A DNA stretch of 64,000 bases from contig NZ_JABJXS010000004.1 in assembly GCF_013155275.1 (NCBI RefSeq), forward strand, positions 1 to 64,000. The letters are read 5' to 3'. A program made the position numbers and the translations under genes. Below the pieces are notes generated by a model. It was given only the letters and a program-made list of their open reading frames with translations, did not search any database and had not been told where the DNA came from. This DNA is from Brenneria sp. hezel4-2-4. Its GTDB lineage: Bacteria; Pseudomonadota; Gammaproteobacteria; Enterobacterales; Enterobacteriaceae. Below, in pieces: positions 37,334-56,776 of this stretch (position 1 is its first letter; each line of letters opens with the position of its first letter).

Positions 37334-39457
37334 TTAAAACGACAATTCCCGTATCAATACCGCCGATACCACTTTCCAGCCGCGCACCAGCAGGCTTTGC
37401 GCTTCGCCGTCCATTGCCACCGTGCCGCGCAGCATCTGTGGTTGACTGTCGCTGTCGGCCGGCAGACTTAGCACTACCCGGTAAACCACCTGCTCGGGAT
37501 GCAGTTTGCGCTGCGCATCGCTTAAGGTGGCGATATCGCCGCCGTATGTAGAAGCCAGTTCCGGTACGGCGCTTAAGTCACGGGTGGCGGTATGGTCGAT
37601 ATCCACAATGGTCACCGGCAACGACGGGCGGCTGGCATCCTGCGGGTAAAAACGCCCTTGCCCGCCGACTTTCAGCCGCTGCCAATCCTTTTCCGAGACG
37701 AACGCCTCCACCAGCCCGCCGGTGGGTTTGGTAATCACCGCCAGCCATTCGCCCTGCGCCAGCCACTCCCCGGTCGCCAGCGGCATGGCCATGTCCGCCA
37801 CCACGCCGCTTATCGGGGCGCGTACCGTCAACTGCGCCGACTGCCGCGTTAATACCGCCAGCTTTTGCAACGCGGCCTGACGTTCCTGATTCACCCGCTG
37901 ATGTTCGCCCACCGTCTCTTTATTGAATACCTGAAATGCCCCTTGCCAGCTCAGGGTGGCGATTTGGCGCTCTAATTGTTGCCGCTCATGCACTAACGTA
38001 TCGGCCGCCAGCGTGAATAACGTCTGTCCGGCCTGAACGGGCTGCCCGACCTGAACGGCAATGCCGTCGATCATCGCCGGCAACGGCATATATAAACTGC
38101 TCTGTTGTTCAGCGCGCAACAGCGCCGGCGCATACACCGTGTTCTGCCAGGGGATCGCCAGCAGCAGCAGTAATACGCAGCCTGATGTCAGCGTCACGAT
38201 CATATTGCGATTCATACGATAATCCTTGCGGCGTTTGCTCCACTCATGCAGTTCATTCACCACCGGCATGATGACGAAATAACCGATCTCCACCGCGAAA
38301 AGCAGCATACCCAGCAGCTTGAACGCCATGTGATAAACCAGAATGGCGATGCCGGTAAACAGAAAAAGCCGGTATATCCACACGCAGAAGGCATAGCCGA
38401 CCAGCGTGCGCCGTAGCCAGCGGGGAAAGGGCTCCGGCGGGGCATCGCCCAATCCGAACAGCCATTCACGCATCTGCCAGCGGCCGATGGCAAACCCCCG
38501 GTTTTGCAGATTCGGGATCTGGAGCCAATCCGACAGCAGAAAATAGCCGTCAAAGCGCATAAACGGGCTGAGGTTAATCGCCAGCGTCATAATCCAGGTG
38601 GTGGTCGCCAGCATAAAGGCCGCGCTGCGCAGCATACCGTCCGGCAGAAAGCTCCAGGCCAGCGTCGCCCAGGCCGCCAGCGCCAGTTCGGTCAGCATCC
38701 CGGCGCCGCCGATCGCCATACGCTGCCGGCGACGGGTCAGCTTCCATGAGCCGGAGGTATCGGTATACAGCACCGGCATCAGCACCAGAAAGGCGACGCC
38801 CATGGTGGCGACCCGCGCCCCAAAGCGCTTACAGGTATAGGCATGCCCCAGTTCATGCAGCACTTTGGTGCAGCACAGCGTGATGCCTGCCAGCGCGGCC
38901 CCTTCCAGAGTAAAAAAGTGCATAAAGGTGTGCTTGAAGGTTTCCCATTGCCGCCCGGCCAGAAACAGCCCCAACACCGCGGCCATCAGCGTCAGAGTTA
39001 AAAATAAACGGCTGAAAAAGGGTTCCACCCACGCCAGGGTACGGCTGAGAAAGCGATCCGGATGACACAGCGGAATACGGAAAAACAGATAGTTCTTCAG
39101 CAACTTACGCCACACCGACACCCGCGTTTTCGCCAATTGCCGCCCAAACTGCGCCAGCGCCTCATCGCCCGTTGCCCGCGTCAGGCTATTAGCCTGCAAA
39201 AAACGGCTGAAATCCTGTACGTCGCTGTCATCGACGGTCAGCGGCAGCGTCTGGCTGATCGCCGTCGCAATTTTCGCCGCATCCCCCAGCGACCAGCGCG
39301 ACAGCATCGCCATTTCCGCCCAGCCGATGCGGAAAAACAGCCCGCGCAACGGATCTTCCAGCGTCCAACTGGGCGATCCGTCACGGTTGGCAGGCCCGGT
39401 ATGCAGGATCAGTTCATCCCGCAGCGGGCTAAGCGCAGGAACCGGACGGTCGTTCAT
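37334..39457 (-). CDS. M50 site-2-type metalloprotease fused to HlyD-type adaptor
   Basis: 707 residues. The N-terminal 130 residues are cytoplasmic. Membrane helices start near 150; the zinc motif HELGH lies at about 201-205 and the second metal-binding block FDGYF at about 302-306, both as in intramembrane site-2 proteases. After further helices to about 420, one more helix (about 425-445) leads into a periplasmic adaptor: lipoyl-like segment with PAMIDGIAVQVGQPVQAG, a short helical hairpin of about 45 residues, a second lipoyl half with VRAPISGVVADM, and a beta-barrel region. Last gene of the cluster. ATG 39457 lies 16 bases after the previous stop and has no clear ribosome site. Proposed role: inner-membrane part of an exporter, perhaps also processing cargo. 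Confidence 0.82.
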   Translation of the reverse strand: MNDRPVPALSPLRDELILHTGPANRDGSPSWTLEDPLRGLFFRIGWAEMAMLSRWSLGDAAKIATAISQTLPLTVDDSDVQDFSRFLQANSLTRATGDEALAQFGRQLAKTRVSVWRKLLKNYLFFRIPLCHPDRFLSRTLAWVEPFFSRLFLTLTLMAAVLGLFLAGRQWETFKHTFMHFFTLEGAALAGITLCCTKVLHELGHAYTCKRFGARVATMGVAFLVLMPVLYTDTSGSWKLTRRRQRMAIGGAGMLTELALAAWATLAWSFLPDGMLRSAAFMLATTTWIMTLAINLSPFMRFDGYFLLSDWLQIPNLQNRGFAIGRWQMREWLFGLGDAPPEPFPRWLRRTLVGYAFCVWIYRLFLFTGIAILVYHMAFKLLGMLLFAVEIGYFVIMPVVNELHEWSKRRKDYRMNRNMIVTLTSGCVLLLLLAIPWQNTVYAPALLRAEQQSSLYMPLPAMIDGIAVQVGQPVQAGQTLFTLAADTLVHERQQLERQIATLSWQGAFQVFNKETVGEHQRVNQERQAALQKLAVLTRQSAQLTVRAPISGVVADMAMPLATGEWLAQGEWLAVITKPTGGLVEAFVSEKDWQRLKVGGQGRFYPQDASRPSLPVTIVDIDHTATRDLSAVPELASTYGGDIATLSDAQRKLHPEQVVYRVVLSLPADSDSQPQMLRGTVAMDGEAQSLLVRGWKVVSAVLIRELSF

Positions 39458-39473
39458 GGTAGAGACGGCATCA

Positions 39474-40832
39474 TCATACGCCCAGCCACACGCGCAGCGT
39501 CGCCAATGGCTTACGCAACAGGTAGACGAACAGCACGGTGCGATGACCATACACTTTCGCCGTGCCTTTCAACCCCACGCGCAACAGCGGATCATCCTGG
39601 GTGAACCTGGCCCGCAGCCGATAAGCCATAATGTTGTCCGGCGTCGGCGCCGAACGGTAGCCGATGTGTTCCAACAGCGCCGACTGCGCCGAATTTGGCG
39701 CCACGTTGAGGAATAGGCGCACATCGGCCCCTTTCTCCAGCGCGATGGCGTCGGCGGCGGGCAGTTGGATCTCCAGTTCGACATCGTGCGGATCGGCAAT
39801 CATCATGATACGTTCGCCAATCGCCACCGAACGGCCGATCCAGTCGCTGGCATCATCAAAAATCGCTACGCCGTCACGTGGGGAAACCAGTTGCATACGC
39901 GCCAGTTGCCGTTGCAGAAAATCCATCTCGCTTTGCGCCTGTCCCCGGCGGCTTTGCAGCACCGCCAGACTGGCCTTGCTATTGGCATCGAACAGCGCCT
40001 GCTGCTGCGCCTGACGGAATTGCGCATCGGCGCTGGCAAACGCCTGCCGCGCCGATTCCAACCGGTTTTCCAGTTCGCGGGCGTCCAGACGCACCAGCGG
40101 TTGATTGGCCGCGATCTGCTGATTGGGGCGCACCAGAATGTCGTCCACCACCCCGGCCACCGGCGCCCGCACCATCACCGGACGATGCGCGACGATCTCC
40201 GCGGGCGCCAGCACCGACTGGCGCACCGGGATCAGCATAATCAGCAACAACGCGATCGCCCCCGCCAGCATCAGGCGGCGGCGGTTGGGACGGACGTCTG
40301 CTGTAGCGCGCCGATGTCTGCCTAACCCCAGCCAGGCGTGGGAATAGGCGTCGGCCAGCTTTTCCAGCAGCACCAGCTCGGCGGGTTGCCATGGGCGGTC
40401 GCGCGCCAGAATCAGCACCAGCGGCTGTTCCCCCTGCGGACGCCGCAGCGGCAGCCACAACAAAAATTCCGGCAGATGTTCCTGCCACAGCAACCGATCG
40501 CTGGCCGGCAGATCCAGCCAGCGCAGGGATTGCGTCTGCCGCCCTTGCTGTTGCCACTGGCGACACAGGTTGCTGAATTCGCTGCAAAACGGCGCATTGG
40601 GATCGAGCGCCGCCAGCCCGGATGCCGTACGCAGACGCTGCTTTTCGCAGTCCCACAGCAACGCCTGGCGGTACTTCACCAGATTGTGCGTTTCATTCAC
40701 CATGAAGAACGCCAGCTCATCCTGCGTTTCCCGCGCTCTGGCGCGGCTTTGCAACTGCAACAGCTCGGCCAGCAGCGCCAGACGGTTATCCGCCTCGTTT
40801 GCTGTCTGCCCGGCGGGATGATTGATGGTCAT
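39474..40832 (-). CDS. membrane adaptor with N-terminal GAF-like domain and HlyD domain
   Basis: 452 residues. Residues 15-165 look like a cytoplasmic GAF-type sensor domain (LAFFMVNETHNLVKYRQALLW at its start, then LWLPLRR and LEKLADAYSHAWLG at its end). A single membrane helix at about 187-208 is followed by the adaptor part: MVRAPVAGVVDDILVRPNQQ, a coiled-coil hairpin of about 75 residues, and SPRDGVAIFDD as second lipoyl half, then a beta-barrel domain. A sensor on the cytoplasmic face joined to an envelope adaptor is unusual. The start is coupled to the preceding adaptor gene by ATGA. Confidence 0.8.
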   Translation of the reverse strand: MTINHPAGQTANEADNRLALLAELLQLQSRARARETQDELAFFMVNETHNLVKYRQALLWDCEKQRLRTASGLAALDPNAPFCSEFSNLCRQWQQQGRQTQSLRWLDLPASDRLLWQEHLPEFLLWLPLRRPQGEQPLVLILARDRPWQPAELVLLEKLADAYSHAWLGLGRHRRATADVRPNRRRLMLAGAIALLLIMLIPVRQSVLAPAEIVAHRPVMVRAPVAGVVDDILVRPNQQIAANQPLVRLDARELENRLESARQAFASADAQFRQAQQQALFDANSKASLAVLQSRRGQAQSEMDFLQRQLARMQLVSPRDGVAIFDDASDWIGRSVAIGERIMMIADPHDVELEIQLPAADAIALEKGADVRLFLNVAPNSAQSALLEHIGYRSAPTPDNIMAYRLRARFTQDDPLLRVGLKGTAKVYGHRTVLFVYLLRKPLATLRVWLGV

Positions 40833-41575
40833 GGCGCAGCGCCGCCCGGCGCGGGCGGGGCAATCAGCGCGACGCCGCTCATGCCCGGCAGCAGCCCGGC
40901 GGTGGACTGGGTAATACGCCCAAACACCTTGACCGACTGGCTGACCGGCTCCACCGCCGAAGAGATGCGGCTGATTTCCGCCGGATAACTCAGCCCGGTT
41001 TCATCCAGCGTCACCTGAAAGGGATTCCCCTGCTTTAGCCACGCCAGCCAGCGCGACGGCACGATCATTTCCAGCTCAAAGGCGCTGTCATCGTAAATCG
41101 CCAGCAGTTCCTTGCCTTCCGGCACCGACTCCCAGCGCTTCACTTTGCTTTCCGTCACCCGGCCGGAGAACGGCGCTTTAATGGCGCAGCGTTGCAGCAT
41201 GGCGCGGTTGACGCCGCTTTCCGCCTGCGCCATCGCCACCGCCGAACGGGCCTGATCGACCTCGGACAGGCTGATCGAGTTCAGCTTGTCCAGCCGGTTG
41301 GCGATAGCCAGTTTTTTACGGGCGGCATGTTCTGCCGCGGCGGAATAATTCAGCTTTTCTTTCAGCACCGTACAGTCAAAGCTCAACAGCGTATCGCCCT
41401 GCTTGAAATGCTCGCCCTCTTTCACCGCGATATCGGTGACTTTGGCCGAAATTTCACTGGAAAGGGTGGTGTAACGCACCGCGCTGAGCTGTACGCGAAT
41501 ATCGCTGTTATCGGCCGCCTGCCCCCACAGCGGCGTCAGCAGCGCCCCCGCCAACAGAAACTGCCGCGCTTTCAT
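40829..41575 (-). CDS. HlyD/RND-type periplasmic adaptor
   Basis: 248 residues with signal peptide 1-21 (ending WGQAA). Lipoyl-type halves DIAVKEGEHFKQGDTLLSFD and IKAPFSGRVTESKVKRWE frame a hairpin of about 60 residues; the C-terminal part is a short beta-barrel. It is small for the family. The start ATG shares one base with the TolC stop (TGATG). Likely partner of the lipoprotein channel encoded directly upstream. Confidence 0.85.
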   Translation of the reverse strand: MKARQFLLAGALLTPLWGQAADNSDIRVQLSAVRYTTLSSEISAKVTDIAVKEGEHFKQGDTLLSFDCTVLKEKLNYSAAAEHAARKKLAIANRLDKLNSISLSEVDQARSAVAMAQAESGVNRAMLQRCAIKAPFSGRVTESKVKRWESVPEGKELLAIYDDSAFELEMIVPSRWLAWLKQGNPFQVTLDETGLSYPAEISRISSAVEPVSQSVKVFGRITQSTAGLLPGMSGVALIAPPAPGGAAP

Positions 41576-43275
41576 CAATGGGCGCCTCCGGCTTGTAAGG
41601 ATTGCAGGTTGTCCCACATGTCGGTGTTTACCGTACGGTAGGGTTTGGCCGGCGTCGCCGCGACGGCGACCGGCTGAGCGACCACCGGCGTTACGGTTGT
41701 CGCCGCCGCGCCCGGCGCAGCCAGTGAAAGACGCGGCACCGGCACGCTCCCGGTTTCAATATTGCTGGTGGTGCGGGCGATGGTATTGCTTAACGCCGCC
41801 AGACTGGTATCGCCGACATGATCGGGCAGCACGTCCAGCCCGGCGGCCTGATACACCGCGCCCAGCGCATTCTGCACATCGGCAAAGCTGCGGTCGCGGG
41901 CGCGGGTGGTGAGGATGGTTTCCGTGCTGACGCGCACCTGCTCCATCTGCGTCGCCGCCTGATTACGCACGCTTAACTCGGTCTGATTGAGAATGCCGCG
42001 TTGAATACGCGCCAGTTCCTGATAACGGTTAAACATGCGCGTGCTTTGCTGATACTCCTGCCAGGCGACGTTCACCTGCGTCAGCACCGCCATGCGCAAT
42101 GCCTGACGCCGCGCTTCCGCCAGTTCTTCGTTGGCCTCGCCGGCGCGCTTTACCGGCGACCATGCCAGCACATTCAGTAGGTTGCCGCTGACCTGTAACC
42201 CGGCGCTGGCCCACTGGTGGTTCACCAGATAGCTGTTGCTGTCGCCATTGATGCCGGCGAACAGCGAGACGCCGGGCAGCAGCCGCAGCAGCGATTTACG
42301 GGTTTCCAATACCGCATTGCGCGCCAGATAGCTCTCTTCGCGCACTTCAGGCCGTTTCACCATCGAGAAGTTTTCCAGATCGTCGAGGGTATAGGCCATT
42401 TTCGGCGCCGCCAGACTGCTTTCGACGGGCGCCGCCAGATCAAATTTGCTGGCCGGCGGCAGGTTCATCAGCGCAGCCAGACGGGACTTGGCCATCACCA
42501 GATCGCTGTCGACGATTTCAAGCTGGCGCACCATTTCCAGCATATTTTTCTGGAAACGCAGCGCGTCTACCGGCGCCAGCAAACGTTGTTGCTCGGTCTG
42601 ACGGGCATATTCCAGCGCCTGACGCGCGTCGACCAGCGCGGCCGTCACTTCCGGCTGCAAGCGCTGGGCGGTGGCCGCTTCCCAATAGGCGGTACGCACC
42701 TGACGGGTAATATCCGCCACCACGCGGCGGCGGCGCTCTTCGGCCGCCAGCGATTTGTTCGCCTGCATCTTGGCGTTGAAGTAGCTGATGCCGAAATCCA
42801 GCACGTTCCAGCTCAACGACAAATCCGCCGTGCGCGTCGTTTTATCCTGACTGGTGGAGGCTTCCAACGACTGCTCGCCGGTGGTCACCGATTCGCTGCT
42901 GGATCCGGCCACGTTATTGCGGGTTTGCAGCCCCGCCCGCGCCGCCAGCTTAGGCAACATGTCCAGACTGGAAACGCCGATCAGGTTATCTTCCATCGCC
43001 TGTTCCATCAGCGCCACCCGCTGTTGCAGGTTGTATTTCAGCGCCCGGGCAATCGCCTCGTCCAGCGTAATGGTGCCGCGCACCGGCTCCTGATTGGCGA
43101 ACATCTGCGTCCGATCGCTTAGCGCCTGCGCCACCTGTTGCTCCGTGGTCACCGGTTCAGGCTTGACCGCACAGCCGGCCAGCCCCAGGCAGGCCAGCGT
43201 TACCGCTACTTTCAGCGCCCGGGAACCGGCAGACTGTTGCTTGCTATCCCGGAGTTTTGCTATGTGCTGATTCAC
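41575..43275 (-). CDS. TolC-family outer-membrane channel lipoprotein
   Basis: About 566 residues. Lipobox LAGC near residue 35 after a longer basic leader. Two outer-membrane-efflux repeats follow, with typical heptad-rich helices (ITRQVRTAYWEAATAQRLQP and later VLTQVNVAWQEYQQSTRMF). The C-terminal 80 residues are low-complexity (Ala, Pro, Val, Thr). GTG 43275 is preferred since GGGGAG precedes it by seven bases; ATG 43290 would add five residues but lacks a ribosome site. It provides the outer-membrane tunnel of the cluster; a lipidated form is more like OprM/NodT than the type I secretion TolC. Confidence 0.88.
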   Translation of the reverse strand: MNQHIAKLRDSKQQSAGSRALKVAVTLACLGLAGCAVKPEPVTTEQQVAQALSDRTQMFANQEPVRGTITLDEAIARALKYNLQQRVALMEQAMEDNLIGVSSLDMLPKLAARAGLQTRNNVAGSSSESVTTGEQSLEASTSQDKTTRTADLSLSWNVLDFGISYFNAKMQANKSLAAEERRRRVVADITRQVRTAYWEAATAQRLQPEVTAALVDARQALEYARQTEQQRLLAPVDALRFQKNMLEMVRQLEIVDSDLVMAKSRLAALMNLPPASKFDLAAPVESSLAAPKMAYTLDDLENFSMVKRPEVREESYLARNAVLETRKSLLRLLPGVSLFAGINGDSNSYLVNHQWASAGLQVSGNLLNVLAWSPVKRAGEANEELAEARRQALRMAVLTQVNVAWQEYQQSTRMFNRYQELARIQRGILNQTELSVRNQAATQMEQVRVSTETILTTRARDRSFADVQNALGAVYQAAGLDVLPDHVGDTSLAALSNTIARTTSNIETGSVPVPRLSLAAPGAAATTVTPVVAQPVAVAATPAKPYRTVNTDMWDNLQSLQAGGAH

Positions 43276-43335
43276 CAGGGTTCTCCCCATCAATGTAGTG
43301 TGTTTATGTTGTTTTTATGCGGCGCTAAATTCACG

Positions 43336-46300
43336 TCACGCCGCCGGTGACGCGGTGTTTTCCGTTAACTGACTTAAGGCGTTCAGTAATTCGTCGTACT
43401 CTTTCTGCGCCTGATATGCACTCTGTTCCTGTTGCAGTTGCGCGGAGAAAGCGACTTTGGCGTCCGGCCCGTCCGACTGCGGCATCTGCTGCCCAAGTCG
43501 CGCGTTTTCCGGTGTGGTTCGCAGAGATGAAAAATCCACCGCGTCCAGCGGCGGCATCAGCGTCGCCATAATCGGATCCAACTGCCAGGGCGTTGCGGCA
43601 TAATCCATTTCCCCGTTCACCAGCGGATATCGCTCGGTGGACAACGCGTCGCCGGACAACGGCGTCGCCCCTGTCGCCAGGTTGGATACGGAAGGCATTG
43701 CGCGCGTAACCGGACGGGAGGCGCCGCCTATCGCCTCTTCCGGCCGCTCCTCTTCCTGCCGGGCGTCCCCCCCTTGCTCCATCATGCCCGGCGCGTTGGA
43801 CGGAGGCAGGAAAACCGGCGATACCGGCTGTTTATCAACCGCCAACGTCAGGTTGCGGGTGGCGGTTCCGCCCTGTCCGTCGCTTACCGTTACCGTCAGC
43901 TCGAAGCTGCCGACGGCGAACGTCCTGCCGCTGATGGTTCGCGTGTCGGGGTCAAAGCCCAGACCGTCCGGTAGCCCGTCGACGCGCCAGCTCAGCGTGT
44001 CGCCGTTGACGTCGCTGAACAGATCGCCCGATAGCGTGGCGCTATATGCCGCGGCCCGCGTCGCCGTCGGCAGTTCTGCCTCGGCGTCCGTCGCCTGCGG
44101 CGCGCTGTTGACGATATTTACCCTGGCCGCGATCGACAACGCAGTGGTGTTCTCACCGCCAGCGGCGGTGCCGCCGTCGTCCCGTACCGCCGTCAGGCTA
44201 ATGACCCGCTCGCCGGTGGAAACCGTGCCGTCGGTGTTGGCGTAAGTCAGGCCGTCGATCAGCGCCTGCGCGTCGGCCTGGCTGAGTCCGGCGTTACTGG
44301 TGATAATCAGCGTAGCGGTGCCTTGATCGACGGCGACCGTCACGTTCAGACCGCCGACGGTGGTCACACTGACGCCATCGGTCAGCGTCACGGTCGTGCC
44401 GTCGACCAGCAGACTTTCGGCAGCGTCGACCACGCCGGAGACGGTGATGGTCAACGCCGCGATGGACTGGCCGTCCTCCACGGTGGAAACGTGGGTGCCA
44501 TCGAACAGCGGTGCGCCATTATCGCCTGCCGCGTAGCTGGCATCGGTGGGCGTGGTCGTTAGTACCGGCGCATTGTTGACCGCGGTGACGCCGACGGTGG
44601 CGACAATATTCAGCGCGGCGGTGTCGCTGCCGCCGTTATCCAGGCCGCCGTTATCCTGAATCGCCGTCAGCGTGACGGTTCGCGCGCCGGCCGTCGGATC
44701 GTCGCTGGCGTTGGCATACGCCATGCCGTTGATGAGTATGGCCGCGTCGGCGGCAGAAATGCCGGTCGCACTGGAAATCACCACGCTAGCGATGCCGTCG
44801 CTGAGCGAGATGCTATAGGCATAGCCGCTGGCGGTGACGCCGGAACCGTCGACCAGCGCCACCACGCCGCCGTCGAGGGTCAGGGTTTCATTGTCCCCAT
44901 CGCTCAGACCGGAAACGCTCAGCGTCAGAGCGCTCAGCGCCTGCCCGGCTTCCACGGTGGAAACGCCGGCGTTGCTGAACAGAGCGGCGGCGGCGGCGCC
45001 TTCCACATAAACGGTGTCGGCGGGGGTGGCGTTCAGCACCGGCGCGTCGTTAACTTCGGTGACGTTTAGCGCCAATATCGCACTGACGCTGGCGGCATAG
45101 GCATCGGTCACGGCGATCGCCAGCCGAATACTCGCGCCCGGATCGTCGCTGGCGTTGGTATAGCTGATCTGTTGCAGTACCCGATTGGCGGTGACGCCAG
45201 TCACATCCGCTGTAAAGGTCAGCGTCAGGGCGCCGCCGTCGCTGGTGAAGTCGGCGATGGCCGCGCCGTCCAGATAGAGCGTACCGTCTGTCAGCGTCAA
45301 ACCGTTGCCGTCTACGAATCCATAACCATCGTCGCCGTTGGCGCCGCCTTCACGCACGAGTGTGATAACCGCACCGTTATAGTTGCCCGCGCCGTCGGCC
45401 AGCGCGTCGTAATCCGCATCGCTGAGGGTAATCACATCGGCAGGCAGAACCGTTCCCTGCTCGTGGTAATCAATGGTGATTTGCGTCAGCGCGTCTTTTA
45501 GGCTGACCACGCCGCCGCTGCCAATCACCACCACCGCGCCATGGGCGCCGGTCGCCACGCGCTGCGCGCCGGCCAGCGCGGCCGTCGACGTGCTGGAGAG
45601 CGTTTCAATCAGCGTCAGCGTACCGCCCTCGGACTTGTAGCGGTTGATACTGCCGTCCGAACGGGTGACATACAGTGTGCCGTCGTCGCCGGACAACGCG
45701 ATATCCGTTACGTTGGACAAGTCGCCAACCGCGCCGAGATAGCTCAACGCGCCGCTGGCGGCGTCAAGGCTGAATGCGGCGACGCCATCCTGGCTGGCGA
45801 CATAAATCGTGCCGCCATCGCCGGCAACGGCGATGGCGACGGGGCTGGACATGGCAACGGCGTCTTCGCCCGCGGCCGCGCCGTCGCGCAGCCAGGCGAC
45901 CGCGCTGAGCGTGCCGTCCGTCGCGCGTTGATAGACAATCAGCGTATTGGCGACCGTCTCCGCGGCCGGATTGGTGATCACATACACGTAGTCGCCCACC
46001 ACCTCAATGCCCACCGCAGTGAACAGATAAGGTTCGCTGCTGGTGGAAGCGGCGACGGACTGGCTCAGCGCATACTGGCCGCTGTCGGTATCCAGGGTGT
46101 AGACCAACAGGCCGGAGTAGTTGCCGTCCACCACATACAGAGCGCTGCCGTCAGCGGACAGGGTCAGGTCGACGACGTTTTCGGTGGTCAGCGTCTGAAC
46201 CAGCGTCAGGCTACCGTCGCGGCTATCACGGCTGAATACCGTTACGCTGCCCCCGTCCGCGCCAAGCATAAACACCGTGCCGCCATCGTCGCTCACTTCG

Positions 46301-49300
46301 ATCAGCGAGACGGACGAGACGCCGCTATCCAGCGTCTGCAACAGCGCCAGTTCGCCGGTGTGGGCGTTGCGACTGAACACGGCAATATCGCCATCGCTAC
46401 TGACCACATACAGGTAATCGCCTGCCGTCGTCAGCGCACCGGCCGTAATGTCGGCAAGACCGCTAATCGCCGTCAGGCTGGCGGCGACATCCAGATTGGT
46501 GTAATCGGCGGCGGCGCTGAGTTCAGGTACTGAGTTGTTCACCACGTCAACGGAGGAGACCGCCTGCAACGCGGCGGTATCGCTGCCGCCGTTGTCCTGT
46601 CCCCCGCTGTCCCGCACGCTAAGGGCGATAGTGCGCACGCCGGCGGTCTGGGTATTACTGAGATTGGCGTAGCGGGTCTGTTCGATCAGCGCGATGGCGG
46701 CATCGGCGGCGATACCGCCGTCGCTGACAATCGTCACGGTAGCGGTATCGCCGTCAAGGGTAACGCTATAAGCGTAACCGTTATCGAGCGTGCCGCTGCC
46801 ATCGACCAACCCGATACGCGTGCCCGAGACGGTCAGCGACTCGTTGCCGCCGTCGAGCAGCCCTGAAACGGTAAAGGTGATGGCGGAGAGAGTCTGACCG
46901 CTTTCCACCGTCGATAGGGAAACATCGCTGAACAGACTGACGTTGCTGCCGGAAGTGGCGTAAGTGACATCAGCCGCTGTTGCATCGATCACCGGCGCAT
47001 CGTTAACCGCAACCACCGTTATGCTCGCCGCGATAGCCGGTGAAACGGTATCGCTGCCGCCGTTGGCCGTACCGCCGTCGTCCTGAACGGAAGTCAACGT
47101 GATGGTGCGCGTAGCCGCCGTGGGATCATCGCTCTGATTGGCATAGCTTAGCCCGGCGATCAGCGCCGTGGCATCGTCCACGGCGATCCCGTCGCTGTCG
47201 CTGATAACCACGATGGCCGTTCCGCCTTCCAGAGTAATGCTATAGCTGTAGCCGCCGGCCGTGACGCCGGAACCGTCAACCAGCGCCACCACGCTGCCGT
47301 CGAGGGTCAGGGTTTCACTCGCGCCGTCGGTCAGGCCGGAGACGGTCAGGGTAATATTGGCAATCGCCTGCCCCGGCTCGGTGGTGGAGAGCGTCACGCC
47401 GTCGAACAGCACCACCGCTTCGCCGTTCTCCGTGAAGGTGGCCGTGTTGCCGGTCGCGGCGACGGCGGGCGCGGCGTTGGTCAGGCTGACGGTGACCGTG
47501 CTGGCGATCGCCAGCGTCGTGCTGTTGACGCCGCCATTGTCGGTGCCGCCACTGTCCTGAATCGAGGTGAGCGTGATGGTTCGTGCGCCGAGGGTCGGAT
47601 TGTCGCTGCTATTGGCATAACCGACGCTATCCAGCAGCGTGGCGGTCGCCGCGGCGGGCAGATTGCCGCTAAGCGTCACGGTGGCGATGCCGTCGACCAC
47701 GCTGACCGCAAGGGTATAGCCATAACTGACGGTGCTGCCGTCATCGGCGGCGACGTCAATGCTGCCGCTGGCGCTGGCGCCGTCGATCAGCGCCACGCTG
47801 ATGCCGCCCACCGTCAGGGTTTCGCTTTCGCCGTCCGTCAGGCCGGAGACGGTCAGGGTGACGCTGCTGACCTGTTGGCCGGCTTCAACCGTTGAAACCG
47901 CACTGTCGTCGAACAACTTAACCGCGTTGCCGCCGCTGGTGTAAACCACGCTGCCGCCGCTGGTTTCCACAATCGGCGCATCATTAATCTCGGTGACGTT
48001 GAGCAGCAGATCGAGGCTCGATGAGGCGTACTGGTCCGCTACGGTCAACGTAAGCGCAATGCTGCCGCCCGGATCGCTGCTGGTATTGCTGTAGCCGATC
48101 TGGCGCAGCACCAGATTGGCGGTGGCGGTGGTAACGTCTGTGGTGAACGTCACGGTCAGCGTACCGTCCGCGCTCACAAAGGTGCCGATGGCCGTACCGT
48201 TGAGCGAAATCACCCCATCGGCCAGAGTCAGCCCGTTGCCGTCGCTAAAACTGTAGCTGTCCGCCGCATCGGCGCCGCCTGCACGCGCCAGCGTGATGCT
48301 CGCGCCGTTGTAGTTGCCCGCGCCGCCGTTAAGCGCGTCGTAATCGGCGTCGGACAAGGTGATGGCGGTCAGCGGCTGGGCGGCGGCGCCTTCGGTGTAG
48401 GACGCGGCCACCGCGCCGGCGCTGATCTGGCCCAGGCCGGCAGCGTTGTAGAAACCGCCGTAGTAAATGCTGGAGCCGTCCGAGGAAACGGCAAAGCGGT
48501 TAGCCCGGCCGCTGCTGTTGGACAGCGTACTGATCTGGGACAGCGAGCCGTCTTCGTTGACGCGGTAGACATAGATGTTGCCGATAAAATAACCCGCATA
48601 GAGCGCAGTGCCATCGGCCGAAAGAGACACACCCCAGACGTTCGCAACAGAAATAGAAGCGATTTGGGTGACGCTATTGGCATCGCTGTCATAATGCAGC
48701 GTGACGATCTTCCCACCCGCGCCGGTGGCCACATAGAGGTAGCCGCTGTCGGAGACGACCATGCTACGCATAAAGTTGCTCAGGCCATTTGTATAGGTGG
48801 TGGCGTATGTCAGGGTGCCGTCGTCGTTGGTGGTGTAGACGACGATCCTGGAGTCGCCTGCCACATAGACCACGCCGGAAGCGTTATCGATGACGATGGC
48901 GCTTGCGCCGGCCGTGTAGTCGCTGCTTCTGTAGCTGTCGCTGTAGGCGCCGGCCAGTGTCAGGTTGCCGTTCTCGCCGACCGAATAGGCATAGAGAGTG
49001 TTGCTGGAAATAATGTACAGCGAATCGCCGTCGTCCGATGCCGCCATCCCCTTGATTTGCGATGCGTCGGTAATCTCGACGCTCAGGTCGGTGGCGCTGA
49101 GAGCGCCGCCCTCGTTGACGCCAAGCACGGTAATGGCATAAACGCCGGCAGCGTTCTTGCCCACCAGATAGACATACTTGCCGTCGGCGGAATAGATCGC
49201 CGAGGTGGCGCTGTCCAGGCCATTGATCTCAATGCCGTTGGAGTCGTCGCCATCGTCAGCCGTACCCTGCACGAACGTCTGCACCAACGTCAGGTTGCCG

Positions 49301-52125
49301 GTTTCGCTGTCGCGACTGTAAACATACAGAGTGCTATTGCCCGAAGGCGAGAGCAGTTGGGAATTCGAGTCATTGCCCAGCACGATCAGGTGACGCTCGT
49401 CGGAAGACAGCTCCAGGTTGTAAACGTACTGGCTGAACCCGGTCAAATTGCCTTCGACGGTGTACGCCAGCTCACTGTCATCCGCATCCAGCGACGGCGC
49501 GCTGTTGTTGGCCTCATCCGTGGTGATCACCCGCAGCGTCAATTCGACTGAAGAACCGGCGCCCGACTCGTCAGTCGCCGTCACGGTGACGGTGTAGTCG
49601 CCCACCGCGCTGGAAGAGCCGGAAATGGTCAGGGTCGCGGCATCGAAGGTGAAACCGTCTGGCAGGCCGCTGACGCGCCAGGTCAGGCTGTCGCCGTAGA
49701 GGCTATCGGCGTCGCTGAACATCGTACTGTCCAGCGTCGTGCCGTAGGCGGCGCCCTCGGTGGCATAGGCCAGCGTGGCGGAGACGTTCTCGTTGATTTC
49801 CGGCGCGCGGTTGGCGATCTGTTCGACCGTCAAATCCAGTTCCAGCGCGGCGCTGGCGCCGGAGACGTCGGTAACGGTCACGGTCACGATAAAGCTGCCG
49901 GTTGCCAGCGCCGCTCCGGAAATGGTACGGGTCGTGGCGTCGAAAGTCAGACCTTCAGGCAAACCGCTGACGCTCCAGGTCAGGCTGTCGCCGTCGGCAT
50001 CGCCGAACAGGCCGGAGAACAGCGTGAAGCTGTAGGGCGTCTCACTGGTGGCGGCGCTCAGACTATAGCCGGTGGACGCATCGATGTTGACCTGCGGCGC
50101 CGCATTCACCCGCAGGGTAATCGCCACGGCGCTGCTGGCCAGCGTCGCGTCGCTGGCGATCACGCTGAGCTGGATAAAACTGCCGACCGTCGCGCCGGCG
50201 TTGGCGTAGGTGAGCTGTTGCAGCACCTGGTTGGCGACCGCCGTGGTGGCGTCGGCGGTGAAAATCACCGTCAGCACGCCATCATCGCTCGCGCTCAAGG
50301 CGGCGATGGCGCTGCCGTCCAGGGAAATAACGCCGTTCGACAAACTCAGTCCGTTTCCATCGGCGAAACCATAGCTGCCAGTATCAACGTTGGCGCTGAC
50401 GGTGATACCGGCGCCGTTGTAGTTGCCCGCGCCGTTGCTCAGCACGTCATAGTTGCTATCTTTCAGCGTCAGGCCGGCGGCAAAGGTCAGCGCCTCCCCC
50501 TGATCCAACGTCTGCGCGCTGGTATAGCGGTATACGCTGCCGCCGGCCACCAGTATGGACAGGCCGTCAGCGGAAATAGCAATATCACTGCCGCCGCCGG
50601 CAATACGGCTGCTCAGGGTCAGCGCGCCGTCGCCGGCGACCGAGAAGACGCTGATGCCGCCGTCGACGGATACGGCATAGAGCAAACCGTCCTCATCACT
50701 TAAGGCGATGCTGGATATGCCGCTGATGGAAAGGGTATCAAGCTGGGTGAGGGCGTTATCCCTGAACTGATAGATTAAAACCACCTCTTTGAGCGGCGCC
50801 GCAATATAGAGATACTGACCATCCGCCGAAACCGCCAGAGTGGCATCGCTGACATCGTTGGTGTAGTTCGGGTTATTCCAGTCAATATTATCCCAGTCTG
50901 TATCGAGGTCGCTGACTGTCACGTTGGTGATGGCGTCAAGTGAACCGTCGTCATTGCGCTGGTAAACACTCAGGCTGACTGAACCGAAATTACCTGCGCC
51001 GGAGTAAATCACGTAAACATAGTCGCCGGCGGCGGCGATCACACCCTCGCGGCTGTTGTCGTCCGGCGCGCGCCCTACATAGGTCAGCGCGCCGGTGGCG
51101 GCATCGCGGCTGTAGATCACCACCCCGTTCGATTCGGTGCCGACATAGACCCAGGCGTCATCGTCAGCGATCGCCATCCCGCCGGTTACGTCGCCGTTGT
51201 CGGTAGCGACGGTTGATACATTATCGATCTTACCGTCGTCGCCAACGCTGAAGACATATACGTTGCTGCTGCCGTCAATGACGTAGATCGAACGGTCATC
51301 CGCGCTGATCACCATTTCCGTGGCTTTGCTCATTCCATCGACAGCCAGCGTGTCGGCCAGCGTCAGACGCCCGCCGTCATCAATGGAAAAGACGGCAACT
51401 ACGCCCTCTCCGGCGGCGTAGGCGTAGTTGCCGTCGCCGGAATAGACAACCTCCGCGATGTCGCCAACGGTAATGGATTCGGCGGCTTCCAGCGCGCCAT
51501 CATCCGACAACACCGGGGCGACGTTGATCTGGCTGTCGATGGTGATGGTGGAGCTGATGCCCAATTGCGCCGTGTCGCTGTTGTCGCTCAAAGTGGACAG
51601 GGTCACAGTGACGGTGCCGCTTTCCACCGTGTTATCCAGCGTGCTATAGGCAATACCGTCGATCAGGCTGGCGACGTCGGAAGCCGTGGTGTCTTCCACC
51701 GAGTCGAGAGCGATCGTGACGGTGGTGGTATTGCCGCTGACCGCGACAGAATAGAAATAGCTTTTGCCGGTCGTGGCGCCGCTTCCGGTCTCAAGGGAGA
51801 TAGCGCTGCCGTCAATAATCAGCGCCTGGTTGCCGCCGCTGCTATCCACGGTTATCACCAACGAGGATAATGACTCGCTGCTGTTGTCGAGCGTGACGCT
51901 GACGCCGCTGAACATATCCACGCTTTGGCTACCGGAGGATTCATCAATGGTAACGGTGGCTTCGGCCCCGCTGGCGGTAACGCCGGGCGCGGTGTCGGTG
52001 GCGGCCACCACCGCTTCCGCCGTGGCGACGGCGGCGGCGTCGAACATCATGCGAGGTTCCAGCGCCCATGCCTGCTGAGGAAGGCGCCGGTGTGCCGCGC
52101 GCGATGCGGAACGTGAATAGGTCAT
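43336..52125 (-). CDS. giant LEPR-motif repeat protein, probable exported surface adhesin
   Basis: 2929 residues. The N terminus has no Sec signal; it is basic and holds LEPRMMFDAAA at 23-33, the motif seen at the start of large exported repeat proteins. Approximate order: Ig-like module (50-200); seven-bladed lactonase-like propeller (205-540); DxDYD-type module (541-672); two cadherin/dystroglycan-like domains (675-875); propeller (880-1235); DxDYD module (1240-1375); three 150-residue Ig-like modules (1380-1855); propeller (1865-2220); DxDYD module (2220-2355); two Ig-like modules (2358-2670); cadherin-like domain (2675-2765); charged tail with no RTX nonapeptides. AGGA lies ten bases before the ATG. 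Acidic, cysteine-poor. Likely cargo of the four-gene exporter downstream; function as adhesin is inference. Confidence 0.85.
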   Translation of the reverse strand: MTYSRSASRAAHRRLPQQAWALEPRMMFDAAAVATAEAVVAATDTAPGVTASGAEATVTIDESSGSQSVDMFSGVSVTLDNSSESLSSLVITVDSSGGNQALIIDGSAISLETGSGATTGKSYFYSVAVSGNTTTVTIALDSVEDTTASDVASLIDGIAYSTLDNTVESGTVTVTLSTLSDNSDTAQLGISSTITIDSQINVAPVLSDDGALEAAESITVGDIAEVVYSGDGNYAYAAGEGVVAVFSIDDGGRLTLADTLAVDGMSKATEMVISADDRSIYVIDGSSNVYVFSVGDDGKIDNVSTVATDNGDVTGGMAIADDDAWVYVGTESNGVVIYSRDAATGALTYVGRAPDDNSREGVIAAAGDYVYVIYSGAGNFGSVSLSVYQRNDDGSLDAITNVTVSDLDTDWDNIDWNNPNYTNDVSDATLAVSADGQYLYIAAPLKEVVLIYQFRDNALTQLDTLSISGISSIALSDEDGLLYAVSVDGGISVFSVAGDGALTLSSRIAGGGSDIAISADGLSILVAGGSVYRYTSAQTLDQGEALTFAAGLTLKDSNYDVLSNGAGNYNGAGITVSANVDTGSYGFADGNGLSLSNGVISLDGSAIAALSASDDGVLTVIFTADATTAVANQVLQQLTYANAGATVGSFIQLSVIASDATLASSAVAITLRVNAAPQVNIDASTGYSLSAATSETPYSFTLFSGLFGDADGDSLTWSVSGLPEGLTFDATTRTISGAALATGSFIVTVTVTDVSGASAALELDLTVEQIANRAPEINENVSATLAYATEGAAYGTTLDSTMFSDADSLYGDSLTWRVSGLPDGFTFDAATLTISGSSSAVGDYTVTVTATDESGAGSSVELTLRVITTDEANNSAPSLDADDSELAYTVEGNLTGFSQYVYNLELSSDERHLIVLGNDSNSQLLSPSGNSTLYVYSRDSETGNLTLVQTFVQGTADDGDDSNGIEINGLDSATSAIYSADGKYVYLVGKNAAGVYAITVLGVNEGGALSATDLSVEITDASQIKGMAASDDGDSLYIISSNTLYAYSVGENGNLTLAGAYSDSYRSSDYTAGASAIVIDNASGVVYVAGDSRIVVYTTNDDGTLTYATTYTNGLSNFMRSMVVSDSGYLYVATGAGGKIVTLHYDSDANSVTQIASISVANVWGVSLSADGTALYAGYFIGNIYVYRVNEDGSLSQISTLSNSSGRANRFAVSSDGSSIYYGGFYNAAGLGQISAGAVAASYTEGAAAQPLTAITLSDADYDALNGGAGNYNGASITLARAGGADAADSYSFSDGNGLTLADGVISLNGTAIGTFVSADGTLTVTFTTDVTTATANLVLRQIGYSNTSSDPGGSIALTLTVADQYASSSLDLLLNVTEINDAPIVETSGGSVVYTSGGNAVKLFDDSAVSTVEAGQQVSSVTLTVSGLTDGESETLTVGGISVALIDGASASGSIDVAADDGSTVSYGYTLAVSVVDGIATVTLSGNLPAAATATLLDSVGYANSSDNPTLGARTITLTSIQDSGGTDNGGVNSTTLAIASTVTVSLTNAAPAVAATGNTATFTENGEAVVLFDGVTLSTTEPGQAIANITLTVSGLTDGASETLTLDGSVVALVDGSGVTAGGYSYSITLEGGTAIVVISDSDGIAVDDATALIAGLSYANQSDDPTAATRTITLTSVQDDGGTANGGSDTVSPAIAASITVVAVNDAPVIDATAADVTYATSGSNVSLFSDVSLSTVESGQTLSAITFTVSGLLDGGNESLTVSGTRIGLVDGSGTLDNGYAYSVTLDGDTATVTIVSDGGIAADAAIALIEQTRYANLSNTQTAGVRTIALSVRDSGGQDNGGSDTAALQAVSSVDVVNNSVPELSAAADYTNLDVAASLTAISGLADITAGALTTAGDYLYVVSSDGDIAVFSRNAHTGELALLQTLDSGVSSVSLIEVSDDGGTVFMLGADGGSVTVFSRDSRDGSLTLVQTLTTENVVDLTLSADGSALYVVDGNYSGLLVYTLDTDSGQYALSQSVAASTSSEPYLFTAVGIEVVGDYVYVITNPAAETVANTLIVYQRATDGTLSAVAWLRDGAAAGEDAVAMSSPVAIAVAGDGGTIYVASQDGVAAFSLDAASGALSYLGAVGDLSNVTDIALSGDDGTLYVTRSDGSINRYKSEGGTLTLIETLSSTSTAALAGAQRVATGAHGAVVVIGSGGVVSLKDALTQITIDYHEQGTVLPADVITLSDADYDALADGAGNYNGAVITLVREGGANGDDGYGFVDGNGLTLTDGTLYLDGAAIADFTSDGGALTLTFTADVTGVTANRVLQQISYTNASDDPGASIRLAIAVTDAYAASVSAILALNVTEVNDAPVLNATPADTVYVEGAAAAALFSNAGVSTVEAGQALSALTLSVSGLSDGDNETLTLDGGVVALVDGSGVTASGYAYSISLSDGIASVVISSATGISAADAAILINGMAYANASDDPTAGARTVTLTAIQDNGGLDNGGSDTAALNIVATVGVTAVNNAPVLTTTPTDASYAAGDNGAPLFDGTHVSTVEDGQSIAALTITVSGVVDAAESLLVDGTTVTLTDGVSVTTVGGLNVTVAVDQGTATLIITSNAGLSQADAQALIDGLTYANTDGTVSTGERVISLTAVRDDGGTAAGGENTTALSIAARVNIVNSAPQATDAEAELPTATRAAAYSATLSGDLFSDVNGDTLSWRVDGLPDGLGFDPDTRTISGRTFAVGSFELTVTVSDGQGGTATRNLTLAVDKQPVSPVFLPPSNAPGMMEQGGDARQEEERPEEAIGGASRPVTRAMPSVSNLATGATPLSGDALSTERYPLVNGEMDYAATPWQLDPIMATLMPPLDAVDFSSLRTTPENARLGQQMPQSDGPDAKVAFSAQLQQEQSAYQAQKEYDELLNALSQLTENTASPAA
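43830..51975 (-). repeat. long coding repeats within the giant gene
   Basis: Several unit types recur: six Ig-like modules marked by STVEAGQ and YANxSDxPxxGxRTITLT-like segments; three modules marked by ITLSDADYDAL and GNGLTL-like segments (near 45060-45460, 48000-48400 and 50110-50500); three propellers (near 45460-46530, 48420-49480, 50500-51520); three cadherin-like units with GLPxGxxFDxxTxTISG. At DNA level short blocks such as GTTGCCCGCGCC recur at 45385, 48318 and 50421. Propeller plus DxDYD module recurs as a pair three times. Confidence 0.75.
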
Positions 52126-52162: not shown

Positions 52163-53794
52163 TTATTCAATCAATCGAACGAAACTGCTTTTCTGATGCA
52201 GTTCGTCAACAATGTCACTTAGGCGATCCCTGATTTTGCTTTCCGAGGCGACAAAGTCCTCACCGTTGTAATACGTCAGATCGCTGCTTTTCTCGGCGCA
52301 ACTTTGTAATCCCGCCCCGGCAATACGGCGAAATTCCGAAGCGCTGGCAATGGCGCCGTCTTCATCCGTCGCCTCGTCGTTGCCGGTGGTAATCATGTAG
52401 AACTTAAGATTACGAGCACGAAAGCTGGCGCACAGGTTGGCGAAACGCTCAGTGGTAAGCGCCGCGTAATTGTTGCAATTGGCCTCACTGGCGGAGACGG
52501 AACACCCGTCTATGGGGTTGCCCACATAACTGTTGTAGCTGTCAGTGTCGAACCAGCGCTGACCGGTGGAATTAACCAGCATGACGATAGCCTTGATGCG
52601 TTCGCCGTTGCCCTCGTCAAAATCCTTAGGCAAATCGTCATCCAGATCCCAACCGGCGCTGCCGCGAAACTCAGGCGCTAGCGCCATGGCCGCCCAGCCT
52701 AGCGCGATGGCGTAGTTGGTATTGAAACGTCGGGACATCTCGTCGAGGCGTTCGGCGATCTTGTCCAGATCGTTGGTCAGCGGCAGCAGAGCGGCGCTGG
52801 GGCAGCCGCGATCGGTGATCAAGGTGCGGGTATCATTCACGCCGGTAGCCTGACCAAAATCAGGGTTGGGGCCGATCCAACTGATGGTGTAGGGTTCGAT
52901 GCCGAAATTGGTGTCGTTCGACGGTATATCGGCGCGGTAATAAATGTTGAACTGCCCGCTGGGCGCTTCGTCCCAGAAATAGTTTTCCCCCCGCGCCAGT
53001 CCCCGGTACATACACAGGAGTTTGGCGCGCCGATCGGGCATACGGGCATCGGCCAGTCCGCTGTAGCCGACGCTGAACAGCGAGGTCAGTTCCACCGGTC
53101 TTAGCGCGCCGGATGCGGCCCACTGCCGGATGCGGTTGCTATGATCATTATCGTAGATGCTAACCGATTGGCTATGCGGCACCAGCGCCAGCCAGACGTT
53201 ATCGCTGTCGCCGATCAGATTCTCCGCGAACTCATTGCCGATACGGCGCAACACCGCCAGATTAGCGCTGTCCTCATTCAAGGTATTGGGCAATATCAGG
53301 GACACTTCCGTCGAACGGTTGACCACCTCCACCGTGGAGTGGATCTGCTGCTCGGAGGATGCCAGCGTCAAGAGTTCCGGAGAGGCGGTAAAGCCGACCG
53401 TCACGGTATAGGTCGGATAGTTGTCGCCGTTGCGCCCTTCGCTCAGACTCACCTTATCAAAGGTAATATCCTCGGCCAGCTTGCTGTTCACGCCCAGATT
53501 CGCCCGGATATAATCGAACGCCAGCTCCGTCAGTTGCTCCTGACTGACGTTTTCATTCTGTTTTCCGCTCAGCAGCGCCTGATGCCCCACCGCCAGCGCC
53601 GCGGCATCGGCGGCGCGTTTAATCTGCGCCGCATCGCCCGTCGCAGTGGAAGAATCAACAATGAAGGCCGCGCTGACCAGCAGTGCCATCGCGCCCAACA
53701 CGTAGAGCGACGCGCCCGCACCGCGCTCCTGCCGCGCAAAAACTCGCAGGGCATGCGTCAAACGCCGCATACGGCCACCGGAATTATCCTTCAT
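52163..53794 (-). CDS. tadG: TadG-like protein (Tad locus 2)
   Basis: About 543 residues. N-terminal TadE/G-type segment GAGASLYVLGAMALLVSAAF (about 25-45) followed by the TadG Flp-like region AAQIKRAADAAALAVGHQAL. The position of the von Willebrand metal site reads LILPNTLNED instead of the DxSxS pattern seen in locus 1, so the metal site is lost. Later blocks such as ALGWAAMALAPEF and IKAIVMLVNSTGQ still fit the fold. ATG 53794 overlaps the tadF stop by 11 bases. Last gene of the Tad order; only 37 bases separate it from the giant gene. Confidence 0.82.
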   Translation of the reverse strand: MKDNSGGRMRRLTHALRVFARQERGAGASLYVLGAMALLVSAAFIVDSSTATGDAAQIKRAADAAALAVGHQALLSGKQNENVSQEQLTELAFDYIRANLGVNSKLAEDITFDKVSLSEGRNGDNYPTYTVTVGFTASPELLTLASSEQQIHSTVEVVNRSTEVSLILPNTLNEDSANLAVLRRIGNEFAENLIGDSDNVWLALVPHSQSVSIYDNDHSNRIRQWAASGALRPVELTSLFSVGYSGLADARMPDRRAKLLCMYRGLARGENYFWDEAPSGQFNIYYRADIPSNDTNFGIEPYTISWIGPNPDFGQATGVNDTRTLITDRGCPSAALLPLTNDLDKIAERLDEMSRRFNTNYAIALGWAAMALAPEFRGSAGWDLDDDLPKDFDEGNGERIKAIVMLVNSTGQRWFDTDSYNSYVGNPIDGCSVSASEANCNNYAALTTERFANLCASFRARNLKFYMITTGNDEATDEDGAIASASEFRRIAGAGLQSCAEKSSDLTYYNGEDFVASESKIRDRLSDIVDELHQKSSFVRLIE

Positions 53795-54395
53795 TGTCTT
53801 CGTATTCCTCTTTCGGCTGTCCGGCTTCCTGCCCCAGGGCGCTATCCAACGCAATCACGCCATCCCCGGTCCGGTTTACCATCGTGACGTTCAGCAGGTT
53901 ACTCAGCGACAGCCCGCCGGCCAGGCTGATGTCTTTCCCTTCACGGCACAGTTCCACCACCACCATAGAAATGTTCTCGCTGCCGGTTTCCTGATCTTTT
54001 TCCGGTAAATCGCCCGGATAGTGTTCGCCGTAACCGGCCTGATTGGCGGTACAGAGTTGGTCCGAATTGCCGCGATCAAGCTGCCAGTACAGCTCCCCGG
54101 TCTGGCGCACATTGCTGATAAGCAACTGGTAATTTCCCAGTCCTTCCTCCGGCAGCACCGCATCCAGCAGACCTTGCAACCCTTCTTGCGTCAGTTCCCG
54201 CTGCATGCCGAGAATTGAGACGATGGCGCCGGCCCGCTGCTCCATGCGTTCACGTTCAAGACCGACGGTATAGATATCCGCGCACAGCGCGCCGATTGCC
54301 AACACGATGGGCAGCGCCAGCGCCGTTTCAACGGCGACGGAAGCACGGACGGAAGAGCGGAAGCGACGCCAGCCGCGCGGGCGGAAACTAGTCAT
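53784..54395 (-). CDS. tadF: TadF-like minor pseudopilin (Tad locus 2)
   Basis: 203 residues. The prepilin-like segment SVAVETALALPIVLAIGALC (about 20-39) has the conserved Glu and leads into one membrane helix. The rest is a soluble periplasmic domain ending in a strongly acidic tail. ATG 54395 overlaps the tadE stop; GGA lies nine bases upstream. Equivalent by position to 7410-8057, with weak sequence similarity. Confidence 0.78.
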   Translation of the reverse strand: MTSFRPRGWRRFRSSVRASVAVETALALPIVLAIGALCADIYTVGLERERMEQRAGAIVSILGMQRELTQEGLQGLLDAVLPEEGLGNYQLLISNVRQTGELYWQLDRGNSDQLCTANQAGYGEHYPGDLPEKDQETGSENISMVVVELCREGKDISLAGGLSLSNLLNVTMVNRTGDGVIALDSALGQEAGQPKEEYEDNEG

Positions 54396-56757: not shown

Positions 56758-56776
56758 GTTGGCTCTTCCCTCGTCC

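Follow-up and report, generated by a model that had tools for sequence, protein, structure and literature searches.

Introduction

Type I secretion carries giant proteins such as LapA, SiiE and the RTX proteins out of the cell through an ATP-binding cassette (ABC) exporter, an HlyD-type adaptor and a TolC-type channel. In Gram-positive bacteria, serine-rich-repeat adhesins are exported by the accessory SecA2/SecY2 system. A further related arrangement is found in the daptide system; according to its report (PMC10036551), a site-2 protease there carries RRE domains at its N-terminus, the open reading frames (ORFs) that occur with it have ELExMEAP as a common N-terminal motif, the proposed agent of leader removal is an RRE-dependent intramembrane peptidase, and ABC transporters are among the co-occurring genes. 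Here we analyse a cluster of five genes on the minus strand (positions 37334–52125) of a 64,000-nucleotide stretch of Brenneria sp. hezel4-2-4 DNA (contig NZ_JABJXS010000004.1; hereafter the window), which encodes a giant repeat protein, a TolC-like channel and three HlyD-type adaptors, one of them fused to an M50 site-2-type protease. Judging from sequence comparisons, we consider it reasonably probable that this cluster is a dedicated ABC-less exporter of one class of giant surface proteins, guided by a leader and driven by a SecA-type motor. With slightly less confidence, we are inclined to regard it as a member of an undescribed class of secretion system that occurs widely in Pseudomonadota and would combine a leader-binding site-2 protease-HlyD protein, a GAF-HlyD adaptor, TolC, an N-terminal LExRxxFD[GA]A tag on the cargo and SecA-type motors, the SecA core of one branch being without the SecY-engaging parts. 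What the sequences show directly is the conservation of the genes, their co-occurrence with giants, a linked motif, an intact set of protease residues and SecA-like genes in sister clusters.

Organisation of the window cluster

A preliminary description of the window had listed five tightly spaced minus-strand genes with no ABC, resistance-nodulation-division (RND) or major facilitator superfamily (MFS) pump among them. ORF translation and a profile scan of the five proteins bore out both points. The features of the cluster are as follows.

43336..52125, minus strand: giant LEPR repeat protein P0001, 2929 residues, presumed cargo (ORF, profile matches)
52033..52062, minus strand: N-terminal LEPRMMFDAA motif, residues 22–31 of P0001, proposed export leader (sequence, motif statistics)
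43435..43449, minus strand: C-terminal FSAQL motif, residues 2893–2897 of P0001, possible second signal (sequence, motif statistics)
41575..43290, minus strand: TolC/OEP outer-membrane channel P0002, a lipoprotein with a LAGC lipobox recognised by eye (profile match, start comparison)
40829..41575, minus strand: small HlyD adaptor P0003 with a Sec-like signal and no further transmembrane segment seen by eye (profile match, by eye)
39474..40832, minus strand: P0004, a GAF-like, presumably cytosolic domain followed by a transmembrane segment and a periplasmic HlyD adaptor (profiles, relatives)
37334..39454, minus strand: P0005, M50 site-2-type protease fused to an HlyD adaptor, from its likely start; the ORF reaches 39550
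38996..39439, minus strand: N-terminal domain of P0005, a homologue of the sister-lineage domain that weakly resembles PqqD (profile comparison)
38843..38857, minus strand: HELGH zinc motif of P0005 (H, E and H invariant in 50/50 relatives)
38546..38575, minus strand: NLSPFMRFDG, second protease motif of P0005 (N, P and D invariant in 50/50 relatives)

Based on relatives and gene junctions, three starts probably lie downstream of those of the listed ORFs, namely at 43290 for TolC, 41575 for the small HlyD and about 39454 for M50-HlyD. The overlaps in the middle of the cluster amount to 1 base (TGATG) and 4 bases, and the 77-base overlap listed between the GAF-HlyD and M50-HlyD genes becomes a gap of about 19 bases once the latter start is trimmed. 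A promoter and terminator scan of the cluster was uninformative. Pfam identified OEP (TolC) in P0002, HlyD_3 in three cluster proteins and, additionally, HlyD in P0005, where Peptidase_M50 scored 27.2 bits, equal to the Pfam cut-off. P0003 exceeded the cut-off of an RND adaptor model of NCBIfam.

P0001 combines a basic N-terminus with a lactonase beta-propeller and He_PIG/Ig-like repeats (Pfam). The LEPR-XLL model (NF012209) scored 12.3 bits on this protein against a cut-off of 17; the motif is nonetheless visible in the sequence (ALEPRMMFDAAA). Neither DUF4347 nor, in agreement with the preliminary description, an RTX/VCA0849-type C-terminal signal (E<=1) was matched in P0001.

Conservation of gene order

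A search of genome contigs with P0005 returned 21 loci from Brenneria, Pectobacterium, Symbiopectobacterium, one Serratia record, Cedecea, Klebsiella sp. and Niveispirillum. The order giant, TolC, HlyD, GAF-HlyD, M50-HlyD recurs in 20 of these 21 loci, and the cluster is thus not a chance assembly. In one locus (L006) the giant is spread over several frames. At the remaining locus, from Niveispirillum (L023), we identified TolC, HlyD and M50-HlyD; the ORF call contained no GAF-HlyD, and no P0001-like giant was found there. The exporter proteins of Pectobacterium are approximately 79–88% identical to those of the window, the giants just about 28–36% alike over the matched part. Separately, two Symbiopectobacterium records (L016 and L017) contain several broken genes, and their cluster appears to have decayed.

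A wider set comprised 98 regions carrying the window type of M50-HlyD (subtype A), 60 for discovery and 38 held out, the latter being in part other loci of the same genomes. In 85 of the 98 regions the gene just upstream of M50-HlyD encodes GAF-HlyD, and the small HlyD is present in 81. A giant-like ORF was called within 6 kb of M50-HlyD in 41/60 discovery and 14/38 held-out regions. By eye, no conserved extra pump was apparent among the 14 largest recurrent neighbour families of the 98 regions; these consist mostly of sensors, ligand-binding or unrelated genes, and one family (seven loci) mixes ABC proteins.

Co-occurrence with LEPR and DUF4347 giants

The co-occurrence survey covered 398 genomes of Pseudomonadota, the phylum of the window, with two M50-HlyD candidates scored per genome; because the genomes are mutually related, the p-values below are not independent tests. 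M50-HlyD profile matches at E<=1e-10 were obtained in 111 genomes, of which 90 were kept as strong. The 21 dropped genomes, with best E weaker than 1e-30, held HlyD-only proteins, M50 proteins without HlyD, or fragments. LEPR-XLL matched in 53 genomes, and 51 of these fall among the 90 (p=6e-37); the two outside are G279, with a 64-residue frame, and G212, with a frame of 2514 residues. DUF4347, an independent domain of 164 residues, was found in 93 genomes, 74 among the 90 and 19 without a strong M50-HlyD match. Altogether 85 of the 90 M50-HlyD genomes contain LEPR or DUF4347 (p=1e-59), and of the five that do not, the window genome (G000) and G298 have adjacent giants that the models missed. 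As a control, RTX-type giants recognised by VCA0849 occurred in 67 genomes, 21 of them among the 90 (odds ratio 1.7, p=0.08), which gives no clear link. The tie between M50-HlyD and LEPR proteins anticipated in the preliminary description was therefore recovered from both sides, and M50-HlyD genes were not equally frequent in genomes without LEPR or DUF4347 proteins.

A conserved N-terminal motif in the giants, a likely export leader

The N-terminal motif, searched as LE.R..[FYL][DS][AG] and summarised here as LExRxxFD[GA]A, and a C-terminal motif, [FL][ST].QL within the last 60 residues, were both derived from the discovery set and applied unchanged to the held-out set. P0001 contains both (LEPRMMFDA and FSAQL). 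In the discovery set, 22 of 25 adjacent giants with a visible N-terminus carried the N-terminal motif compared with 1/264 controls, and this single control match is a piece of the split giant in L097. The motif was missing from three: L081, the remaining piece of L097 and an additional, different giant in L119. All ten held-out giants carried it versus 2/144 controls, both of which are giants that fell under the composition cut. The C-terminal motif was less general: it occurred in 11/29 discovery giants versus 0/264 controls and 2/913 internal windows, and in 5/9 held-out giants versus 3/144 controls and 2/255 internal windows, many giants being without it.

DUF4347 proteins allowed a comparison within one family, in which one extra letter was tolerated in the N-terminal motif. 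Beside M50-HlyD, all 34 distinct proteins with a visible N-terminus (44 printed rows, including L133 from a subtype-B locus and overlapping with the giants of the discovery and held-out sets) carried the motif. In genomes without detected M50-HlyD it was absent from all six proteins compared; two of the eight such regions (L221 and L223) were omitted as their N-terminus could not be fixed, and two of the six proteins (L222 and L224) come from one incomplete genome, G181, where M50-HlyD may be missed. By eye, L218 and L219 among these six begin with Sec-type signals and the remainder have no such leader; L220 ends in an RTX-like tail. The DUF4347 domain follows the N-terminal motif in 4/5 giants scanned. 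Because the motif is linked in this way to giants adjacent to M50-HlyD (34/34 versus 0/6 among DUF4347 proteins), the N-terminal LEPR segment is likely the export signal of the giants, as the preliminary description had proposed.

Two further observations concern the giants themselves. LEPR motif matches were found in open frames, not gene-checked, of 19,427 (G061:C115:112865), 15,251 and 14,920 (G006:C1:2799186 and 2731726) and 15,434 residues (G014:C1:496108). The LEPR/DUF4347 giant at L088 (808–5529) terminates in a caspase-like domain (PF00656, 8e-21).

A SecA-like ATPase in the sister lineage

In the sister lineage of M50-HlyD clusters (subtype B), M50-HlyD is directly followed by the gene for a SecA-like ATPase of approximately 660–680 residues. 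All four such proteins submitted matched Pfam SecA (E 5e-81 to 4e-100). In the alignment, from which one of four housekeeping rows was ignored as a wrong frame, the SecA-like protein retains the nucleotide-binding motifs and the preprotein-crosslinking domain and ends before the C-terminal SecA region, which we take to comprise the two-helix finger, the wing and the zinc tail. Across 66 genomes, we identified 17 SecA-like genes (>250 bits) in 13 genomes; all 17 lie beside a subtype-B M50-HlyD, 8 of the 17 places having been fetched through the SecA match rather than the protease, and a further 66-bit match in G014 lies outside the 17. Among 19 protease-fetched subtype-B regions scanned with a profile seeded by L127, L128, L136 and L143 (L145 was omitted), the SecA-like gene was found in 15, two of which (L134 and L140) gave weak matches, and was not detected in L131, L133, L141 and L142. 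Some subtype-B clusters carry LEPR frames of 9,292–12,894 residues (G287, G159 and G014:C25). At L127, a SapC-family protein (PF07277, 7e-75; 3703–4593) is encoded between the giant and GAF-HlyD.

Since the sister lineage places this truncated SecA-like ATPase directly after M50-HlyD, the motor of the exporter is probably of the SecA type. For the window lineage, the housekeeping SecA is the simplest guess.

The SecA-like genes also bear on a second reading, in which an atypical signal takes the giant across the inner membrane by way of the housekeeping SecA/SecYEG while the HlyD, M50 and TolC proteins act only afterwards by clearing the anchor and delivering the protein to the surface. We regard this as possible but rather unlikely. 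The giants do have a weakly hydrophobic stretch after a basic n-region, with hydropathy near that of a Sec signal, SecA-like motors accompany the sister clusters, and site-2 proteases are known to clear signal-peptide remnants. However, the LExR motif is missing from the two DUF4347 proteins with Sec-like signals, L218 and L219, whose genomes yielded no M50-HlyD. LExR leaders are also less hydrophobic, with a median hydropathy of 1.41 (range 0.86–2.09) versus 1.82–2.18 in the four Sec-type N-termini measured, although the values give no clean split between the two kinds. Finally, two of the adaptors have apparently cytosolic domains, which suggests that recognition precedes translocation.

Type I exporters in genomes carrying the system

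No dedicated ABC exporter was found in the window cluster or among the scanned neighbours. Exporter-type ABC proteins are encoded in just 2/98 subtype-A regions (L123 and L198), both outside the gene run, and genes for ABC ATPases were seen in a few regions, by motif in L091, L099 and L110 and by similarity in L115 and L116. An ordinary ABC type I exporter encoded elsewhere could nevertheless move the giant, leaving the cluster to supply adaptors, channel and processing only. In agreement with this, the window genome encodes RTX-type giants as well as two further canonical type I adaptors. The type I adaptor model TIGR01843, however, had no match at E<=1e-20 in 7/40 genomes carrying the system, and the adaptor is absent from 5 of the 38 system genomes with >=90% completeness and <=5% contamination. 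A search for PF00664 exporters covered five of the seven adaptor-less genomes. It found a single one in G064, a 99% complete genome that contains LEPR giants, and none in G088 (95% complete); the G064 exporter best matches MsbA (600.4 bits, cut-off 602). The other three genomes, G023, G298 and G213, retain 5, 4 and 5, one of which is classified (MsbA). Taken together with the missing RTX-type C-terminal signal of P0001, these results make such an exporter an improbable carrier of the giant.

As a general answer, a type I ABC exporter acting in trans is thus unlikely, and the window itself is less settled given the two adaptors of its genome. The preliminary description had allowed that an ABC exporter elsewhere might suffice; this is countered in part, by the adaptor-less genomes and not by the window genome. 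Its broader view, a separate kind of envelope-type cluster that has no ABC gene and is linked to LEPR giants, is supported by both the co-occurrence and the type I adaptor survey. By contrast with the window cluster, a separate RTX-type giant of the same genome lies close to a canonical type I adaptor (G000:C5:70405 and 74412).

Protease and adaptor domains

P0005 shows the M50 family signature, HExxH with a distal N-x-x-P-x4-D-G. Residues H232, E233, H236, N326, P329 and D334 are invariant in an alignment of 50 M50-HlyD proteins from both subtypes, all of which match Pfam M50 at E<=0.1. The N-terminal domains of subtypes A and B align with a probability of 99.6% in a profile comparison. PqqD (Pfam) matched 6 of the 50 proteins at E<=0.1, with the best value, 1.1e-4, in the subtype-B protein of L127. 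In profile comparison with PqqD, subtype B gave E 5e-4 with a probability of just 13%, and the subtype-A domain compared with two PqqD sequences gave no match (E=0.21). The GAF profile matches 16/46 members of the GAF-HlyD alignment, P0004 not being one of them. The best NCBIfam match of P0005 is the daptide protease model NF041824 (8e-43), under its cut-off. Among the best 60 matches of each search against solved structures were HlyD/MacA-type adaptors, biotin/lipoyl domains and weak site-2 protease matches, and none of these structures spans a full-length relative.

The preliminary description had proposed that the intramembrane protease replaces or gates the inner-membrane pump. We think it improbable that M50-HlyD is itself such a pump or gate, working without an ATPase. 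None of the five window genes encodes an ATPase and the protease residues are invariant (50/50), but the sister lineage adds a SecA-type ATPase beside the same protein, and we know of no intramembrane protease that pumps protein. The proposal is thus not supported, and the protease more likely handles the leader than pumps.

Proposed export route

The reading that we favour, a SecA-driven, leader-guided exporter, would operate as follows. The giant would be synthesised with a basic N-terminal leader that ends in LExRxxFD[GA]A. At the inner membrane, the most likely receptor for this leader would be the PqqD/RRE-like N-terminal domain of M50-HlyD, perhaps assisted by the GAF-like domain of the second adaptor. 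A SecA-type motor would then drive the chain over the inner membrane, a dedicated one in the sister lineage and probably the housekeeping SecA in the window lineage, and the intramembrane protease would cut or clear the leader. The chain would enter a periplasmic conduit formed by the three HlyD-type adaptors and the lipoprotein TolC and so reach the surface, with a possible role for the C-terminal [FL][ST]xQL in the final stage of transport. An ABC pump would not be involved. We infer leader recognition, leader cleavage, conduit assembly, the energy source and export itself.

Several observations weigh against this route. TolC was recognised in just 55/98 subtype-A regions, and 43/98 have no called giant-like ORF within 6 kb; many of these giant-less regions are on short contigs or contain giants under the composition cut (e.g., L189 and L204), while others are long with no giant near. 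The held-out regions share some genomes with the discovery set. The P0001 N-terminus has a hydropathy of 1.75, close to the 1.82 of the P0003 Sec signal, and ordinary Sec export is thus possible. The PqqD/RRE match is borderline, and for the window subtype the link to PqqD runs solely via subtype B. No accessory SecA was found in the window cluster or its genome, which has a housekeeping SecA and a second match of 30 bits. That genome also contains two other canonical type I adaptors above the cut-off.

Neighbouring Tad pilus genes and regulators

The genes directly upstream of the giant encode a Tad pilus.

52163..62593, minus strand: Tad (Flp) pilus genes, outside the exporter; possible functional partner in the window lineage

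They end 37 bases upstream of the giant, and TadA, a Tad-pilus ATPase, is encoded further upstream in the window. It is very improbable that the cluster serves to mature the Tad pilus or an associated adhesin, with the Tad machine exporting the giant. The proximity in the window does recur directly upstream of the giant in Pectobacterium (L148) and around that of G158 (L068), but just 2/141 fetched regions are clearly Tad-linked (3 with any match), though many regions stop short of the far side of the giant. The giant of G158 shares the lactonase propeller, and these loci form a Tad-linked sub-branch.

A two-component system whose similar starts read MRVLVVDDDSVL or MRVLIVDDDSIL was observed at L148 (2101–4288), L019 (12291–14440) and L020 (13122–15271). 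In Pectobacterium it lies upstream of Tad; in Cedecea and Klebsiella it directly follows the exporter. As described in the accessible part of a Pectobacterium study (PMC3767616), the two-component system adjoining flp/tad regulates those genes, and HlyD and TolC are not mentioned in that part. The two-component system may primarily go with the exporter.

Comparison with known systems

As of June 2026, no NCBIfam model matched P0005, P0004 or P0001 above its cut-off. The available part of a secretion-pathway review of the same month, which covers types I to XI, does not contain the terms “site-2 protease”, “intramembrane” or “accessory Sec”. In a literature search with most subscription papers and preprints outside its coverage, none of the papers listed described the system in its title or abstract opening. 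The novelty lies in the architecture and its linkages, as read from the genes. If the proposal is correct, some of the largest predicted bacterial proteins would exit by a route beyond the numbered secretion systems, with a new N-terminal signal, a protease-adaptor fusion replacing the usual pump subunit and, in the sister clusters, a SecA motor core tied to HlyD/TolC genes.

The cluster shares with type I secretion a TolC-type channel, HlyD-type adaptors and giant repeat cargo. It differs in having no ABC exporter, an N-terminal rather than an RTX C-terminal signal, the M50-adaptor fusion and the GAF-like adaptor. Tripartite efflux pumps (RND, MFS and MacB) rely on an energised inner-membrane transporter, which is absent from the five cluster genes. 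The sister lineage parallels the SecA2/SecY2 system in having a SecA-type motor apparently reserved for giant adhesin-like proteins; SecY2 did not turn up, no search having been aimed at it. Unlike in that system, the SecA core is truncated, TolC/HlyD genes lie alongside, and the window lineage is without accessory SecA. The daptide RRE-S2P (MpaP, NF041824) resembles M50-HlyD in carrying an N-terminal domain on a site-2 protease, an RRE in daptides and a putatively RRE-type one here, and in occurring beside cargo with a conserved LE-containing leader motif. Daptides, however, are short peptides with co-occurring ABC transporters, whereas the cargo here is thousands of residues long and the protease carries an HlyD arm. 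The cargo family itself corresponds to LEPR-XLL (NF012209) and DUF4347, although P0001 falls under the LEPR cut-off and is without DUF4347; hitherto sequence families only, these proteins gain a concrete and testable export hypothesis.

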